From the IMG/VR virus record IMGVR_UViG_3300028299_000015, positions 1 to 33,003 of that record: 33,003 nucleotides of DNA. One strand, written 5' to 3'. Below are positions 3,938 through 18,042 of the stretch, one piece after another. A program made the position numbers and the translations under genes. Each line of letters starts with the position of its first letter. Position 1 is the first letter of the stretch. Below the pieces are notes generated by a model. The model was not told where the DNA came from, did not search any database, and saw only the letters and a program-made list of their open reading frames with translations. The DNA is from a virus.

Positions 3938-4939
3938 GGCTACACTGTCCCCACTGGAGAACTTCGTCCAGGCAGCACCGACGCAGGTGATACCATAACC
4001 AGCTCGGTTACGGAAATCCCAGTCATCGGTTTGAACGTCTTCAGCGTTGCCATTCGCCACAGGAGGAATCATATGGGGAGATTCCCATTCACCGAAGAAG
4101 AGCGAACTCATCGCGGTGGATGCGATTCCCCAATATTTACTCTTGGTCGAATCAGGAGCGCCAGCGGCAGTCAACGCCACTCTCGGAAGAATGACGTGCC
4201 TGTATTTACCAACGTAGTTGTTAAATACACCTGCATGCGCGGCATCCGGAGAAGCAGTTGATTTCAAATATTCTCGGACAGTGTTGACCGTGTTGGGGTC
4301 ATCAGTGGTCCATAGAACATCGAATACTGCTCCTGGTTTAGCTTCGCCGAGTTGGTTATAAGTATCAGTTATAATCAACTTCTCCATTAACTCCAAAGCT
4401 CCTTTTGAAAGCTGTGGGTTATTGGCCAGACGATTTCTGTAGGTTGTGCCCGATCCCTTCAATGTGTGCAAGGTATAGAACAGTGCGAATGTGTCACCAG
4501 TACTAACATCGATGGTTCTACCATCTCTGTCGGTATATGACTGCGCTGTTCCGAAAGTGAACCGGTGGCTCAGATCCAAGTCAATGCTATTCGGACCCTT
4601 CTGACCAGCAGCGAGTAATGTGCTGATTATTTCAGGATACTTGTTCTCATCTCTCATCTCAAAAGTAATCCCTACGTTTTCAGCTACTCTATACTTAGTC
4701 ATGGTCTTGGTATAGCCCTGTTGAATCTTACCGCGAGCCGCTTGATCGCCTTCGCCTTTGTAGCTCAAGTATTCGTTAGTATCGATTTCACTAAACTCTC
4801 GTGTGTTACCAGTATTCTTGGTAACGGGAACTCTCTTTACTAATCCAGAATTGAGCATCGCAGGCACGATCGAGGTATAACCCTTGATCCAGATAACTGT
4901 TGCCAATTTTACGAAGTCACCAAAACTTATTGTATTCAA
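3935..4939 (-). CDS. Probable major capsid protein (no ATG start)
   Basis: A 334-residue protein with the size, composition and place of a phage major capsid protein: after terminase, portal, scaffold-like and decoration-like genes. It has no signal peptide or membrane segment. The region TREFSEIDTNEYLSYKGEGD leads into a long alpha/beta body. The start is unusual: the frame has no ATG. The nearest initiator is TTG at 4939, and the frame stays open 18 codons further upstream to the TAA of an HNH gene in the same frame. The first in-frame Met (about residue 28) would remove part of the N-terminal helix. The true N-terminus may be TTG-initiated or may have been disturbed by the HNH insertion. 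The capsid call rests on context and overall look, not on a search. Confidence 0.75.
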   Translation of the reverse strand: MNTISFGDFVKLATVIWIKGYTSIVPAMLNSGLVKRVPVTKNTGNTREFSEIDTNEYLSYKGEGDQAARGKIQQGYTKTMTKYRVAENVGITFEMRDENKYPEIISTLLAAGQKGPNSIDLDLSHRFTFGTAQSYTDRDGRTIDVSTGDTFALFYTLHTLKGSGTTYRNRLANNPQLSKGALELMEKLIITDTYNQLGEAKPGAVFDVLWTTDDPNTVNTVREYLKSTASPDAAHAGVFNNYVGKYRHVILPRVALTAAGAPDSTKSKYWGIASTAMSSLFFGEWESPHMIPPVANGNAEDVQTDDWDFRNRAGYGITCVGAAWTKFSSGDSVA

Positions 4940-4952
4940 TTCGATATTGATT

Positions 4953-4987
4953 CTAATTAACTTCGCGTAATTAACTGCATTTTGTTG
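4953..4987 (+). repeat. Inverted repeat, left arm, flanking an HNH gene
   Basis: The plus strand here contains CTAATTAAC followed by TAATTAACTGCATTTTGTTG. The same two blocks occur on the minus strand at 5531-5499. The shared 20-mer is identical and the arms differ only in the short link between the blocks. In the transcript the two arms could pair as a long stem with the HNH frame in its loop. This arm overlaps the region just before the capsid start. Confidence 0.85.
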
Positions 4988-4993
4988 AATATT

Positions 4994-5428
4994 TTATTTT
5001 AAGAATTCCTCTAATTGTTCCCGCGTATTATTTTTCTTGCCATATTTCTTATGAAATTCTCTATGAGCCTTTTCTGACAGAGTAATTCCATTATCGAGAG
5101 CAAGTCGTAATTCGGGATATTGAGAAAAGTTTTTGATATGATGTGGATGTAGATATTCTCCTTTTATACCATACTTTTGACATGTCCAATTGTCTCTGGC
5201 AAAAATTGCTTCACGCCATAGTCTATATTCTATTTTTGCCTTAAATATTTTTGACTCAGAGCTACTTCCGTTTTTCCAATTCCAGTGATTTTTCCCTCTA
5301 ATGTTGTCTCTTATCTTACCCCTGAAAATAGATGGTTTACCTTTCTGGAATCCATGAGTGTTCCCTATGGCAGACTTACTCATATGTTTTTTATGTATAT
5401 CGGTTTGTTTATATCCCTTTTTTGGCAT
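4994..5428 (-). CDS. HNH homing endonuclease in front of the capsid gene
   Basis: A 144-residue free-standing HNH endonuclease. The N-terminus (about 1-55) has basic NUMOD-like DNA-binding character. The core holds HHIKNFSQYPELRLALDNGI (catalytic His-His, then Asn) followed by HREFHKKYG. Its C-terminus EQLEEFLK is shared with the HNH at 16863-17438, so the two are paralogues. An AGAGG site lies 8 bases before the ATG. It stops 54 bases before the capsid TTG, in the same frame, and lies between two inverted repeat arms. These enzymes nick or cut DNA and spread their own gene; no structural role is expected. Confidence 0.93.
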   Translation of the reverse strand: MPKKGYKQTDIHKKHMSKSAIGNTHGFQKGKPSIFRGKIRDNIRGKNHWNWKNGSSSESKIFKAKIEYRLWREAIFARDNWTCQKYGIKGEYLHPHHIKNFSQYPELRLALDNGITLSEKAHREFHKKYGKKNNTREQLEEFLK

Positions 5429-5429
5429 A

Positions 5430-5495
5430 TTAAACCTCTAATTGGATTAAATTACCAATTCTTTTCTTAGTTGTTTCCATGTCAAATGATTTCAT
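5430..5495 (-). other. 21-codon leader frame before the HNH gene
   Basis: An ATG frame, MKSFDMETTKKRIGNLIQLEV then TAA, lies between the right inverted-repeat arm and the HNH start, ending one base before it. Its last codons contain the AGAGG that serves the HNH. It could be a coupling leader peptide, chance, or the displaced 5' end of the capsid gene. Nothing in the peptide itself decides this. Confidence 0.25.
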
Positions 5496-5498
5496 AGT

Positions 5499-5531
5499 CA
5501 ACAAAATGCAGTTAATTACTTCGTTAATTAG
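5499..5531 (-). repeat. Inverted repeat, right arm, flanking an HNH gene
   Basis: Read on the minus strand this is CTAATTAAC, a 4-base link, then TAATTAACTGCATTTTGTTG, matching the arm at 4953-4987 in opposite orientation. The distance between arms is 511 bases and is filled by the HNH gene. Each arm also has an internal TAATTA/TAATTA self-pairing. This is either a terminal-inverted-repeat-like boundary of the inserted unit or a duplicated leader hairpin. Confidence 0.85.
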
Positions 5532-5627
5532 CCAATTACATATGTGTAATATCTTGGTCTGCGGATAGCGGAGTGATTGTTTACCCGCTAACTTTTCGAC
5601 ACAGACATTAGCATATGATCATGCGCT
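5532..5627 (-). promoter_or_regulatory. Structured leader between decoration-like gene and HNH/capsid
   Basis: This stretch between the 141-aa gene and the right inverted repeat has no gene. On the minus strand it contains three small hairpins: a near-palindrome GCATGATCATATGC, AGCGG with CCGCT around a 13-base loop, and ATTACA-CATA-TGTAAT. It is probably the native leader of the capsid message, now separated from the capsid gene by the HNH insertion. I see no convincing -35/-10 pair. Confidence 0.35.
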
Positions 5628-6053
5628 CTAGGTGGTGCCTTTTCCGCCCGGACCGATGTTGAGAATAACCTCAGCTTTGGTCGTGGATAGATATTTCGTT
5701 ATCTGAACAATGTCGTACGTTGAACTGGCGCGACTAACATGAAGTGAATCAGTTAAATCGCAGTACAGACCTACATCCGCCACTACTAGAGTAGCGGTAA
5801 CGTCCGCAGTCCAAGTGACATAATTCTCTAACGGAACTTCCACCGGCAATAATCTCGCAACAGCGTAATCATCGTCGGTCGCAGCGACTGCTTTGCGCAG
5901 TACTCCGGCCGTTGCCTCATTCGCAGTCGTAGAAGTTGCCGCGATTAACGTACCGCTGTCCCAGCAGACCAATGAATGATCTGATAGAGCACCGGCTGAC
6001 GCAGCCACAGGGAGATACATGATTTTCGTTCGTCCTTGTTTTCGTATAAACAT
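5628..6053 (-). CDS. Probable head decoration or capsid-accessory protein
   Basis: A 141-residue protein placed immediately before the capsid gene, a usual place for head decoration proteins. It is rich in Ala, Thr and Val (SAGALSDHSLVCWDSGTLIA, VARLLPVEVPLENYVTW) and reads as a small beta barrel. It has no signal peptide or membrane segment. The start at 6053 (MFIRKQGRTK) is chosen as the longest; a second Met lies 11 codons in. Family not recognised with certainty. Confidence 0.6.
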   Translation of the reverse strand: MFIRKQGRTKIMYLPVAASAGALSDHSLVCWDSGTLIAATSTTANEATAGVLRKAVAATDDDYAVARLLPVEVPLENYVTWTADVTATLVVADVGLYCDLTDSLHVSRASSTYDIVQITKYLSTTKAEVILNIGPGGKGTT

Positions 6054-6188: not shown

Positions 6189-6263
6189 TGGTTGCGGGAG
6201 AAGGATTTGCACCTCCGGTCTCGGCGTTATGAGCGCCGCGAACTGCTACTGTTCCATCCCGCT
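6189..6263 (-). tRNA. Initiator-type tRNA-Met (CAT) with encoded CCA
   Basis: A 75-base cloverleaf. Acceptor positions 2-7 are GCGGGA with TCCCGC; position 1:72 is an A-A mismatch; the D stem is GAAC/GTTC; the anticodon stem is CGGCG/CGCCG with loop CTCATAA (anticodon CAT); the T stem is GGAGG/CCTTC; the end is ACCA. The unpaired 1:72 position and the A11-U24 pair are bacterial initiator features, and the general layout follows tRNA-fMet. Deviations: the three anticodon-stem GC pairs are not in GGG/CCC orientation, the D loop (AGTAGCA) lacks the GG pair, and the T loop is TGCAAAT instead of TTC-. It lies between head genes and is flanked by two hairpins. Confidence 0.88.
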
Positions 6264-7203: not shown

Positions 7204-7737
7204 CTAGTTAACGAATCTTTGTTTAAAGAATTCAATCCAATATTCTCTGCGAAAATTGACCTTTGAATTACATCTTCTACAAAGTGTAATCAAATTTTCG
7301 GGATTACAATTCTTTTTATCATAGTCAATGTGATGAACCGTGTCGCCGTATTGACTACAATTCTGACAAATATAATTATCTCTTTCTCTAATTGCTCTTT
7401 TAAGAGTTTGCGTCCATTCTACAGGATAAGATTCAAAAGATACTCCACCCTTCCAATTCGAAGACTTCTCTCTCAATGCCTTGCCTTTTCTATTTATGGA
7501 CATTTTTTCTATCGATTCCTCTGAATGATGTTTACCCAACATTCCTTTTCCGTTGTTTTCGCTAATCTTATTTCTAGTTTCTTTTGAATGGTGTTTGCCC
7601 CTCATTCCATAATTAGGATTTATCTTAGCGTTTCTTACCCTTGCTTCTCTAAATAATGGTGTAATTTTTCTAGTCTTAGCTCCCTCGCTCATTCTTTTTA
7701 AAGCATATTCCGAACGTTTATAAACTCCCATTGGCAT
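7204..7737 (-). CDS. NUMOD3-HNH homing endonuclease
   Basis: A 177-residue endonuclease. Two NUMOD3-type DNA-binding repeats are visible (GKHHSKETRNKI and GKHHSEESIEKMS, about residues 48-80), then WKGGVSFESYPVEWTQTLK and the HNH core with CQNC, HHIDYDKKNCNPENLITLC and CNSK, ending NFRREYWIEFF. It is intact in all key residues. It sits between two head genes with short A/T-rich junctions. The same architecture occurs at 9201-9650 and as a fragment at 8284-8458. Confidence 0.96.
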   Translation of the reverse strand: MPMGVYKRSEYALKRMSEGAKTRKITPLFREARVRNAKINPNYGMRGKHHSKETRNKISENNGKGMLGKHHSEESIEKMSINRKGKALREKSSNWKGGVSFESYPVEWTQTLKRAIRERDNYICQNCSQYGDTVHHIDYDKKNCNPENLITLCRRCNSKVNFRREYWIEFFKQRFVN

Positions 7738-10052: not shown

Positions 10053-12119
10053 TTATTGTTGGCCATTGGCGCCTGGCTGTTGAATGCTTACTCTTGGCCT
10101 TTTTATCATTGGCGCTGATCCACCTCCATTTTGCTGTTCTGGCGCTACTGGCGCGCCTCCTGGCGCCACTACTTGCCCTCCTGGCTCCATACCTGGTATC
10201 ACTGGCGCTATCGTTTGCTTCTCGAACAGCTTGGTTGGGTCCTCTTCCCACACCTCGGCAAATCTCTCTTCGATGTGCGAAGGATTGAATACTAGTCCAA
10301 GATTCTTGCCTTGAGTTATCATTGTCTCAAACATCAGTTTTGACATCTCGCTTGATTTCTTCTCTCTGGCCACGACGTTGACTGTCCAAGTTAACTTCGC
10401 CTCTTCTAATTCCCTTGGGTTCAATGCGATGATTCTAAATGGCACGCCATATTGCTCTTGCATCTGATCTTCCCTGTTCATCAATTCTTCCGATGTCATC
10501 TTCTCTTCGGTTGGCATAACCATCCGAATGCCTGGCCCTTCGCCATCAATATTCCTTTGCCTGCTTACTATTCGATATCTATTTCTTAACGCCTGCCTTG
10601 CCTTGTCTAGAACATTATCGATTGGATTGAACCAGTTCTTGAGCAGAGTCATCAATCTTAAAATTGCTAATTTCTTTTCCAATAAACTGGCCGTAAATAT
10701 TGTTAACCCTAACATCATCTTAGCCTGTCGTTGAATCTCTACGATCTGAGTCGCAGTGACTTGGCCTGATTCTGGAGATCCGGTGAACGTCTGCGAAGTC
10801 GTGTCGCGGTCAATGCCATTGGTCATCAGTTTAATCATACTAAATTCTCCATTGGTCACGCCCTGCACTTCGTATGGAGATATCGGCACCAACGTTCCCG
10901 GCTGAATGCCCATCGTGATTGTGTTCGGCCGTAATACGTTTGGCGATATAACCCTGCCACTAGTATTAACATATGGCGGCAAATAAGATTTTTTATCTTT
11001 AAGCAATGCCAGTTTTGTCATCTCGTCCAGCATCTGCACTGGATTTTTATTTTCAAATAAAAATGATTTGCCATACGAAAAGTCTGCTCTGATTGGTTTA
11101 TAGTTTTGTTGCGCGATATTATATTCTCTGTGGCCCCATGGAAAAGGAAATCCAAGAGGCAACATCGGAACGCTGTTGATAATTATTTGATACTCGCTGT
11201 CCGGCTTGCTCTGATATTTTATAACTTCTAAATCTTTATTCTCGCTCATCGCCTCTAGCAATCTCCAATCTCCTCTGACCATTGTTCCCATCGCTTGTCC
11301 GCCGGTGAATGAAACTGTCGCGTTGGGATTAACATGCTTGAACATTTCAAATCCTCCGTAGATTGCCTTTGCCTTCTGAAATGAAAGATATTGCACTGTG
11401 AAAATGTATGGCTGTTCGCTGATTAAATATTTCGTCAGATCTCCCAGATAAACAGAAAGACCACTCAGAATATTTCTGGTTGGTCTGCCTTGTTGCCTTA
11501 CTATTTTATTTTTTATTTTTACTCCGCGAAATTGTCCGTGATAATTTCCCACGACTTCTCTCTCTATCACTAATCTATCATCCCATAATTCTTCCACGAA
11601 CACGAAGCCCTGTTTTAACATTTCATATTGCCTTAGCATTTTCTTTTCTTCGTCTTCGTCCAGCTCTTCTGTTTTGTCAATCACATCTTCCATCGCGTTT
11701 CCTAATTTCGTAATTGCTATTTCGTCTTCATTGTATGCGACGATGTCAGCTGACAAATTTAATCCTAGCAATGAAGATAGAAATCCGAATAATTTTGTTC
11801 GAAGCGTTCCCGATTTATATTGAATATCATTTTTATCTTTCTTCGGTTTCAATTCAACGTTCGCCATCGCCTCATTCGATTGATGATATTCGGTAAACGT
11901 CATGTAGTCAAACTCTTTGTGATTTTGCTCTCTGATCGTCGCAGAATTTTCTAATTTCTTTTGAAGTTTGTTCAGATATTTTTGCTCTTCCTCTGAATAA
12001 GTTGGCGGCACAATAACAAGATTCTCTTGATCTTCGACGAGAACACTATTTGTTGGCGCTGTTAATGTTACTCCATTCATCTCCGGCGCTGTTAATGTTA
12101 CTCCCCCTTGATTTGCCAT
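10053..12119 (-). CDS. Portal protein
   Basis: A 688-residue protein directly after the large terminase. The length, the mixed alpha/beta body with long helices (about residues 520-620), the central tunnel-like region and the disordered Pro/Gly/Gln-rich C-terminus (residues about 640-688) fit a phage portal, the dodecameric ring at the capsid vertex that passes DNA. I choose ATG at 12119 (MANQGGVTL): the longer upstream extension in the same frame is the remains of an HNH gene read in the wrong frame. Two copies of GVTLTAP near the N-terminus come from a 20-bp direct repeat. Confidence 0.85.
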   Translation of the reverse strand: MANQGGVTLTAPEMNGVTLTAPTNSVLVEDQENLVIVPPTYSEEEQKYLNKLQKKLENSATIREQNHKEFDYMTFTEYHQSNEAMANVELKPKKDKNDIQYKSGTLRTKLFGFLSSLLGLNLSADIVAYNEDEIAITKLGNAMEDVIDKTEELDEDEEKKMLRQYEMLKQGFVFVEELWDDRLVIEREVVGNYHGQFRGVKIKNKIVRQQGRPTRNILSGLSVYLGDLTKYLISEQPYIFTVQYLSFQKAKAIYGGFEMFKHVNPNATVSFTGGQAMGTMVRGDWRLLEAMSENKDLEVIKYQSKPDSEYQIIINSVPMLPLGFPFPWGHREYNIAQQNYKPIRADFSYGKSFLFENKNPVQMLDEMTKLALLKDKKSYLPPYVNTSGRVISPNVLRPNTITMGIQPGTLVPISPYEVQGVTNGEFSMIKLMTNGIDRDTTSQTFTGSPESGQVTATQIVEIQRQAKMMLGLTIFTASLLEKKLAILRLMTLLKNWFNPIDNVLDKARQALRNRYRIVSRQRNIDGEGPGIRMVMPTEEKMTSEELMNREDQMQEQYGVPFRIIALNPRELEEAKLTWTVNVVAREKKSSEMSKLMFETMITQGKNLGLVFNPSHIEERFAEVWEEDPTKLFEKQTIAPVIPGMEPGGQVVAPGGAPVAPEQQNGGGSAPMIKRPRVSIQQPGANGQQ
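12055..12104 (-). repeat. Two 20-bp direct repeats at the start of the portal gene
   Basis: GGCGCTGTTAATGTTACTCC occurs twice on the plus strand, at 12055-12074 and 12085-12104, 30 bases apart. Read as protein this doubles GVTLTAP at portal residues about 6-25. It lies next to the HNH remnant, so it may be a small duplication made during repair of an insertion or deletion there. Confidence 0.9.
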
Positions 12120-12311
12120 ATAATTTATAATGTAACATATAATGACATTCTCGGCATAGAGTAATGCCATTATCTAAATTAAATCTTAGTTTAGAATATT
12201 TTGTCCAAGACTTTATATGATGTGCTTGTAAATAAATCGGCTCTCCCTTTTTATCTTTCTTAATGAAACCAGATTATTACCCTTTTGAAATCCTTTTAAT
12301 CCTTTTGGCAT
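12120..12311 (-). pseudogene. HNH endonuclease remnant upstream of the portal
   Basis: ATG at 12311 gives MPKGLKGFQKGNN, like the N-terminus of the HNH at 4994-5428. After a deletion and frame change the end of an HNH core follows: LQAHHIKSWTKYSKLRFNLD, NGITLCRECHYMLHYKLYGK. The central DNA-contacting part is missing. The remnant runs up to the portal ATG and explains why the portal frame appears to extend upstream. Confidence 0.88.
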
Positions 12312-16687: not shown

Positions 16688-16848
16688 ATTGCTGTCAATT
16701 CTAAACTTTGGATTTTCTTTTTTTCTTTTCCGATTATATTCATTGATATGATTTCTATGATTTTTATTGTATTCTTTTCCACCCGATGATTCTTTGGATT
16801 GCGCGGATTAGGCTTAATCTCTTCAATTTTTAATGTTTTTGTTATCAT
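16675..16848 (-). pseudogene. 5' fragment of a ParB-domain gene
   Basis: From ATG at 16848 the first 20 residues, MITKTLKIEEIKPNPRNPKN, are a clear match to the start of the ParB N-terminal domain (pattern: I-I-K-P-N-P-x-N-P-R). Such domains in phages are commonly joined to DNA methyltransferases. After about 24 codons the DNA switches to HNH-derived sequence in another frame and the frame soon ends. It is read as the remaining 5' end of a gene destroyed by the HNH insertion or a deletion, next to two surviving methyltransferase-like genes. Confidence 0.65.
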
Positions 16849-16862
16849 TTTATTGTTTTTTA

Positions 16863-17438
16863 TTATTTTAAAAATTCTTCCAATTGTTCTTTATTGTTAT
16901 TCTTTTGTCCATATATTTTATGAAATTCTTGATGTATTGCTCTCATCAATGTTATCCCGTTATTTATATTCCAAAGTTCCTCACATACCAACGCCTGTTC
17001 CAATGTCTTAATTTGATATTCTTCAATTATTTTACTCAATGATTTAATATGATGAGACTCAATTTCACCAATTTTTTGACCAGACTTTTGACAAGTATAA
17101 TTATATTTTTCAAATACATCAGACCGCCACTGACGATATTTAAAACAATCCCTTATTCTATTAACTAATAATTTAAGTCCCCCTTTACCGTCAGAATTTT
17201 TTAATATCCGAAGAGATTCACTTATCTTCTTTCTAGTTTCCATTGGAAGATGTTTTCCCCTCATTGATTCAGATATTTTTCTTCTAGTAGTTTCTGAAAA
17301 ATGTTTACCGAACATTGGATTTTTATCACCAATCATTAAACCAGTAAGAGATTCACTCAAATGTTTTTTATGTTCTTCTGACAATTTTCTACCCGCTTTG
17401 CGTAGATAAACGCCACTTCTTCCCTTTTTTCCTGCCAT
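16863..17438 (-). CDS. NUMOD3-HNH homing endonuclease
   Basis: A 191-residue enzyme with a basic N-terminus and three NUMOD3-like repeats (LSEEHKKHLSESLTG, GKHFSETTRRKISESMRG, GKHLPMETRKKISESLR, residues about 18-75), then CFKYRQWRSDVFEKYNYTCQ and an HNH core with ESHHIKSLSKII and WNINNGITLMRAIHQEFHKI. The C-terminus EQLEEFLK equals that of the HNH in front of the capsid gene. It lies between a duplicated structured element (17451-17667) and the ParB fragment. Confidence 0.95.
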   Translation of the reverse strand: MAGKKGRSGVYLRKAGRKLSEEHKKHLSESLTGLMIGDKNPMFGKHFSETTRRKISESMRGKHLPMETRKKISESLRILKNSDGKGGLKLLVNRIRDCFKYRQWRSDVFEKYNYTCQKSGQKIGEIESHHIKSLSKIIEEYQIKTLEQALVCEELWNINNGITLMRAIHQEFHKIYGQKNNNKEQLEEFLK

Positions 17439-17450
17439 AATATTATAAAT

Positions 17451-17667
17451 TATTTAGATTGGAGTGTCTGACGACGTTATGATGAGCGGGATTTTCAGCG
17501 CCCACTCCGGCCATCGCCAGACGCCCGTCCAATCAGCGGGTGGAAAATGCCGGAGTTATTTAGAACTACTTGCTGGATAGATGAGGGCGTTATGAAAAAC
17601 CCTTGTCCAAGGCCACCCCGGACACCCCCATCACCGTCCAGCTCGGTGTAATCGTTTCCCGGAGTGT
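17451..17667 (-). ncRNA. Tandem pair of GC-rich, structured elements
   Basis: A gene-free, GC-rich stretch in an AT-rich genome. It consists of two diverged copies of about 106-110 bases: 17451-17556 and 17557-17667. On the plus strand both begin TATTTAGA, share CGTTATGA, a CCnCnCCGG block, CCGTCCA and a GGTG segment, and end in CCGGAGT. On the minus strand each copy forms a closing stem (CACTCCGG/CCGGGGTG in the first, ACTCCGGC/GCCGGAGT in the second) around a smaller hairpin (CACCG/CGGTG, CCCG/CGGG). Conserved pairing across divergent copies suggests an RNA or DNA structure under selection. It lies between VRR-NUC and an HNH gene. No known RNA family is recognised. Confidence 0.55.
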
Positions 17668-17676
17668 TACTAAAAC

Positions 17677-18042
17677 TTATTTTAAATATAAATCAATACA
17701 TTTTTTTGCCGACTCAAATCCACGACAACAAACTGAATAATATCCTCTCTTATCTAATTCAACGAGCCAATCGTCTTGTTCGTACGAAAGCACTCCATTC
17801 TTATCTACTTTTAGCTCAATAAATAATCCGTGATATTTTCCTCTTGGCTCGAAAATAGCCAAATCAGGAAACCCCTTTTTGTGACCAGACGCCTTCATTC
17901 TTTTCCCGCGCATTATCGCCTGTATCCCTTCGCCATACCTTTGACCACCACAATCGGCATTAAACAAAACATCAGGGTATTGATAAGATAAATAATTAAC
18001 CACCGCTACTTGAATTTGGTATTCTTCATTTTTCATAGACAT
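17677..18042 (-). CDS. VRR-NUC domain nuclease
   Basis: A 121-residue stand-alone VRR-NUC protein (PD-(D/E)XK superfamily). The motifs are in order: an N-terminal helix with EYQIQVAVVNYL, CGGQRYGEG, GHKKGFPDLAIF (catalytic Asp), LFIELKVDKNG (Glu-x-Lys), and SYEQDDWLVELDKRGYYSVCC. Its length equals that of the phage single-domain family. Such enzymes act on branched DNA or recombination intermediates. It is 13 bases after the 140-aa gene. All expected catalytic residues are present. Confidence 0.95.
   Translation of the reverse strand: MSMKNEEYQIQVAVVNYLSYQYPDVLFNADCGGQRYGEGIQAIMRGKRMKASGHKKGFPDLAIFEPRGKYHGLFIELKVDKNGVLSYEQDDWLVELDKRGYYSVCCRGFESAKKCIDLYLK

Follow-up and report, generated by a model that had tools for sequence, protein, structure and literature searches.

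An HNH Gene within a Predicted RNA Hairpin at the Start Codon Position of a Putative Phage Major Capsid Gene

Introduction

Homing endonucleases are expected to sit where they do little harm, that is, in introns, in inteins, or between genes. In gene 60 of phage T4, an HNH insertion (mobA) is linked to a hairpin-forming insert of 50 nt that is bypassed by ribosomes, and the take-off codon is followed by a stop codon and a hairpin (PMC3014915, PMC5009743). In T4 genes 25 and 38, an intramolecular hairpin between the Shine-Dalgarno sequence and the AUG shortens the effective leader and promotes initiation (PMC3014915). Besides, free-standing HNH and other homing endonuclease genes (mobE, segB, and seg43) have regulatory hairpins that act on the ribosome-binding site of the endonuclease itself (PMC2988022), and an HNH-coding insertion that is neither a detectable intron nor an intein has been described in a methylase gene of phage ShiLan (PMC11855218).

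We analyzed a stretch of 33,003 nucleotides of a viral genome (IMG/VR record IMGVR_UViG_3300028299_000015, positions 1 to 33,003), hereafter called the window. A sequence-only reading had noticed that inverted repeats bound an HNH gene directly in front of a capsid gene that has no ATG. It inferred that the HNH insertion had split or displaced the capsid 5' end and that the arms would form a long RNA stem with the HNH frame in the loop, and it listed TTG initiation, RNA-level removal, ribosome bypass, and fusion by readthrough as possible outcomes. Here we compare this locus with its relatives and with the systems above.

Results

Inverted repeat and the HNH gene. The inverted repeat noticed in the sequence-only reading is real and brackets only the HNH gene. 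The genes concerned are on the minus strand. The arms of the inner helix (5' strand, 5494 to 5519; 3' strand, 4967 to 4992) are 26 nt long and form 25 Watson-Crick pairs with 1 mismatch (96%). The exact 22-mer occurs only at these two places in the window, where 0.01 matches are expected by chance. A 9-bp outer helix, CUAAUUAAC (5531 to 5523) with GUUAAUUAG (4961 to 4953), also pairs. The helix score is 52 against a maximum of 26.5 in 200 dinucleotide shuffles, none of which reached it, and the fold of the whole region gave a z score of -6.4. The only gene between the arms (4994 to 5428, minus strand; 144 amino acids) was identified as an HNH endonuclease gene by PHROG models (phrog_119, E = 2e-15; also phrog_144 and phrog_1271), although Pfam HNH models remained below their cut-offs.

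The major capsid gene runs from codon 2 (GAA) to its stop at positions 4942 to 3935 (minus strand). Its assignment rests on the sequence-only reading and on gene order, since it follows a probable decoration protein gene (5628 to 6053, minus strand; inferred from position and conservation before the capsid gene in relatives), and it had no PHROG or Pfam match. The frame is open back to the TAA of the HNH gene, and TTG at 4939 to 4937 is its first ATG, GTG, or TTG codon.

Start codon in HNH-free relatives. The first relatives retrieved from IMG/VR (63 to 76% identity) start the capsid gene with ATG, followed directly in most by GAA-YTN-AAY (MELNT). Two wider scans (relatives of 41 to 77% identity overall) raised the number to more than 60 loci, with ATG in nearly all and GTG once; two IMG/VR contigs with ambiguous capsid N termini (L180 and L182) were checked and have ATG. 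The window reads ATC-GAA-TTG-AAT. Thus, the codon in the position of the ancestral ATG is ATC (4945 to 4943), and the TTG is codon 3, the ordinary Leu codon of MELNT. HNH-free relatives that start at the TTG equivalent and carry a single hairpin, which would have contradicted the sequence-only reading, were not found; relatives start at ATG two codons upstream.

Recurrence in related phages. Four other phages of this capsid family also lack ATG or GTG at this position, namely, those designated L068, L069 (the same contig as L105), and L174, with ATC, and L179, with ATA. All five occupied sequences are metagenomic, and L069 ends 201 codons into the capsid gene. In the window, L069, L174, L179, and L068, the capsid genes are preceded by ...AATCAATATC, ...CAAATATATC, ...CAATACATATATC, ...CAACCATATA, and ...CTAATTATATC, respectively, each directly followed by GAA. 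A scan for long helices upstream of 61 capsid genes placed the first four of these loci at scores of 49 to 55 and all others at 30 or less; L068, which was not in that scan, scores 41.5. All five loci with a long hairpin directly at the capsid start, and only these, have AUC or AUA there (4 against 57; Fisher p = 2e-6). The hairpins beat all shuffles.

The 3' end of the inner helix lies 24, 21, 22, 26, and 26 nt before codon 2 in the window, L069, L174, L179, and L068, respectively. The loops hold an HNH gene in the window, an HNH gene of another clade in L179 (28% identity, E = 0.004), an HNH C-terminal stub in L069, a possible zinc-finger relic in L068, and nothing recognizable in L174. On capsid trees the trait needs one gain per occurrence, i.e., four for four on the careful tree and five for five on a quick tree that includes L068. 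A related but different arrangement was seen in L176 (1889 to 2286), where a degenerate HNH gene is enclosed in a 28-bp inverted repeat upstream of a capsid gene that keeps its ATG about 210 nt further on, followed by a second truncated NUMOD3-like frame. In L049 (3590 to 4167), a 30-bp inverted repeat joins the 5' coding region of an HNH gene to the sequence just after its stop codon, downstream of the capsid gene, and L157 (1673 to 1802) has a strong 30-bp hairpin with a 69-nt loop upstream of the decoration-like gene.

The arm is not a widespread repeated sequence: the 21-mer arm had no hit in IMG/VR, and shorter arm patterns gave L069/L105 as the only true case. Furthermore, HNH relatives elsewhere, including those sampled from cultured phages, lack such flanking repeats, so that the repeats belong to the insertion and not to the HNH family. 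No capsid relative was found among 84,980 prokaryote species or among cultured phages, a search with the portal found none, and the terminase was only distantly similar to those of many phages.

Predicted RNA structure. The window and L069 arms are homologous. In the 18-pair inner helix, four pairs differ, two by compensatory double change and two by change to G-U, and none is broken. L069 has 5 G-U pairs and no mismatch in 29 pairs, L174 has 4 G-U pairs and one mismatch in 28, L179 has 2 G-U pairs and three mismatches in 31, and L068 has 1 G-U pair and three mismatches in 28. Because G-U pairs would be mismatches in a DNA repeat, the RNA form appears to be what is kept, although two homologous sequences are a small sample. 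Predicted folds have an outer helix of 6 to 10 bp, an internal loop rich in A, and the long inner helix. The predicted stem base lies 7, 7, 6, and 7 nt before AUH in the window (spacer AAUCAAU, 4952 to 4946), L069, L174, and L179, respectively, but 16 nt before it in L068.

Other hairpins were seen in the capsid leaders. The window has one at 5564 to 5593 (minus strand) with the loop GGUAAACAAUCACU upstream of the capsid start; the same loop occurs in L055 and L071 and a variant (CUAAACAAUCAGUG) in L059 and L068, whereas other hairpins abut the capsid AUG in L060, L065, L041, and L066. These are possibly translational operators. Besides, a phage-encoded tRNA-Met(CAU) that looks like an initiator tRNA (unpaired A1/A72; anticodon loop CUCAUAA) lies at 6189 to 6263 (minus strand), just upstream of the decoration-like gene, and a tRNA-Met lies at the same place in L007, L011, L045, and L069 (C1/A72 in L069).

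Empty site and insertion point. L011 and L069 are one phage type and form an empty/occupied pair: they are 99.4% identical over 3.36 kb, with 0 mismatches in the 700 nt before the insertion. L011 reads CTCTAA-ACATG-GAACTAAAT, and L069 reads CTCTAA-[118 nt ending CAAATATATC]-GAACTAAAT. No target-site duplication was found in L069 against L011, and the arms differ between elements and contain G-U pairs, unlike the family-wide terminal repeats of a terminal-inverted-repeat transposon. Capsid divergence next to the insert is 14/604 against 14/3357 upstream (p = 1.6e-5), as expected if homing carried flanking sequence by co-conversion, though ordinary mosaicism could do the same. L068 and the ATG-bearing L059 are a second close pair by capsid protein.

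In the window, CAT-ATG (ATG at 5543 to 5541, just outside the stem) is followed at once by TAATTGG, so that the probable ancestral start codon is now a start-stop pair, with exactly 598 nt (the whole insert, 5540 to 4943, minus strand) between it and codon 2. The position of this ATG relative to the leader hairpin is as in HNH-free relatives. In L068, ATT-ATG is followed by TAATAATA, and GAA follows the other end. L174 has AAATAAC-ATT where its relative L175 has AAATAAC-ATG. Thus, the insertion point is between codon 1 and codon 2; the ancestral ATG remains in the window and L068 only, looks mutated in one phage, and is absent in two, so that its precise retention is not a general rule. The 5' ends of the elements read UAAU in four of five (not L174), and the 3' ends read AUAU[C/A]|GAA in all.

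Other insertions. Capsid genes of relatives are interrupted by inserts elsewhere (L045, 3406 to 3598; L070, 2951 to 3143; L013, 4598 to 5243 and 5574 to 6493; L068, about 1777 to 2500). Those of L045 and L070 match the group I intron model, and the L013 inserts carry a LAGLIDADG-like and a broken HNH frame. The window itself is rich in HNH insertions, with genes at 7204, 9201, 16863, 19390, 20797, and 25323 and a decayed remnant (12103 to 12249, minus strand) just upstream of the portal gene. The second HNH gene (16863 to 17438; 38% identical to the first) has a 17-nt inverted repeat around it (16775 to 17547, minus strand), which is probably due to chance, and an unexplained GC-rich stretch lies at 17450 to 17690; the downstream frame looks like a ParB-like start fused to an HNH-like remnant.

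Discussion

We consider it most likely (probability of about 0.5) that the element is a homing cassette, i.e., an HNH endonuclease gene carried in the loop of a long RNA hairpin and inserted exactly between codon 1 (AUG) and codon 2 (GAA) of the major capsid gene. The position, the ends, the hairpin-forming sequence, the recurrence, and the loss of AUG are seen directly in the sequences, whereas what follows is our inference. The last codon of the element, AUC or AUA, would now serve as the start codon and, read by initiator tRNA, would yield the unchanged fMet-Glu-Leu-Asn protein. The hairpin would fold the HNH gene away so that the ribosome meets a normal local leader, and it may help to set the weak start codon in the P site. 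The third base would never be G because AUAUG|GAA would restore the uninserted target (empty site, ATATGGAATTG; occupied site, ATATCGAATTG), which the HNH enzyme presumably cuts. The old upstream AUG-UAA would be a decoy that decays. In this view, the phage would begin its most abundant protein in an unusual way.

The HNH-family protein and the presence and absence of the element at one conserved site in nearly identical genomes are as in an HNH homing endonuclease cassette. The element has five separate gains on the capsid tree, while the window and L069 elements are homologous, so that it moves. No in-frame ATG, GTG, or TTG lies between codon 2 and the preceding in-frame stop in any of the five phages, and in the window, L069, L174, and L179 the first internal one is codon 3, 30, 23, and 14, respectively, so that conserved residues would be lost. 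AUC or AUA in the exact AUG position is therefore the only shared candidate start. The difficulty is efficiency. With the initiator anticodon CAU, third-base mismatches are rejected by IF3 in an E. coli system, in which weak pairs gave at most 0.05 uM product against 3 to 11 uM for strong pairs, i.e., about 1 to 2% or less (PMC10158994). A capsid gene should not tolerate this unless something compensates, most likely the hairpin (compare T4 genes 25 and 38; PMC3014915), or coupled reinitiation after the upstream gene, or an unusual host. In addition, the loci without a working HNH gene (L069, L068, and L174) still have AUC, although one base change would restore AUG, and the wider stem-to-codon spacing of L068 does not fit.

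The interpretation given in the sequence-only reading is partly supported. Displacement of the capsid 5' end by the HNH insertion and a predicted stem with the HNH frame in the loop are both now seen in relatives. TTG initiation is not supported, because the corresponding codon is CTA, CTT, CTC, and CTT in the other occupied phages and a start there would drop the almost invariant Glu. Fusion by readthrough is not conserved: in-frame stops differ, L069 has an in-frame TAG five codons before codon 2, and the HNH gene is absent in three phages, including L174 and L068. Splicing and bypass are not excluded but are weakened, since either should keep the upstream AUG, which is missing in three of five.

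Among the alternatives, ribosome bypass or shunting is unlikely but survives as well as any. Here the ribosome would initiate at AUG 5543 to 5541, meet UAA, and be carried over the hairpin to resume at GAA, landing on AUC, as in T4 gene 60. The AUG-UAA at the stem base in the window and L068 and the exact position of the insert fit this reading. However, there is no upstream AUG in L069, L174, or L179, AUG and AUC do not match as take-off and landing codons, and no nascent-peptide signal can exist at codon 1. Bypass from an AUC-stop in the L174 loop was not repeated in the others, and for a frameshift from the ATG in the 3' arm, the frames differ and stops intervene.

It is equally unlikely, though possible, that the insertions damage capsid expression, that the sequences are defective or short-lived variants, and that the hairpin is a by-product of how the cassette moves. 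L069 is a very recent insertion, and the HNH genes are broken or gone in three cases. On the other hand, the capsid frames are intact in all five phages, which represent five separate lineages, helix pairs are kept by compensatory change between the window and L069, and these two elements have diverged, so that the lineage is not new.

Splicing of an undescribed intron, whose ends would be brought together by the stem so that AUG is joined to GAA, is still more doubtful. The common ends UAAU...AUAU[C/A], the exact position between codons 1 and 2 in the window and L068, where joined exons would restore the gene, and the group I introns elsewhere in the same capsid gene speak for it. Nevertheless, no group I or other Rfam intron was detected in the elements by covariance models, the L069 insert is only 118 nt, and splicing could not give an AUG in L069, L174, or L179. 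Besides, no conserved core was seen that would suggest NUH cleavage as in hammerhead ribozymes. A moved capsid start, at an internal codon such as the TTG, the first standard start codon in the window frame, or upstream in frame, is improbable for the reasons given above, namely, the loss of conserved residues and the lack of upstream standard starts.

A broader reading, which we hold only tentatively, is that a mobile RNA hairpin acts as a translation device. It would replace the AUG of the most highly expressed gene of a phage and either drive efficient initiation at AUC or AUA or carry the ribosome past an HNH gene, making the selfish gene harmless and hard to lose. The elements studied here sit at the start codon of a capsid gene in five capsid lineages, always with a long hairpin and always without AUG. 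Either bacterial ribosomes can initiate well at AUC or AUA when a hairpin stands just upstream, or an undescribed way of skipping RNA exists.

We found no report of this arrangement in the open-access literature searched, and each of the closest systems differs from it. The ShiLan insertion lies in frame inside its host gene, and no start-codon loss is described in its abstract. The nearest analogue is T4 gene 60, which shares a homing endonuclease insertion accompanied by a hairpin-forming sequence that leaves the host gene usable, in the present case by inference, by unusual ribosome behavior. A UAA directly follows AUG at the stem base in the window and L068 only. T4 gene 60 differs in that the present element is at the start codon and not inside the gene, that the hairpin contains the HNH gene, that take-off and landing codons do not match, and that the arrangement recurs in five lineages with mostly unrelated arm sequences. 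T4 genes 25 and 38 share a hairpin in the initiation region, but they have an AUG start, a small hairpin, and no mobile gene, and no clear Shine-Dalgarno sequence is present here. In mobE, segB, and seg43, an endonuclease gene likewise lies next to a functionally critical phage gene with an RNA hairpin nearby, but those hairpins act on the endonuclease ribosome-binding site, whereas here the two arms flank the whole gene and the neighbor loses its AUG.
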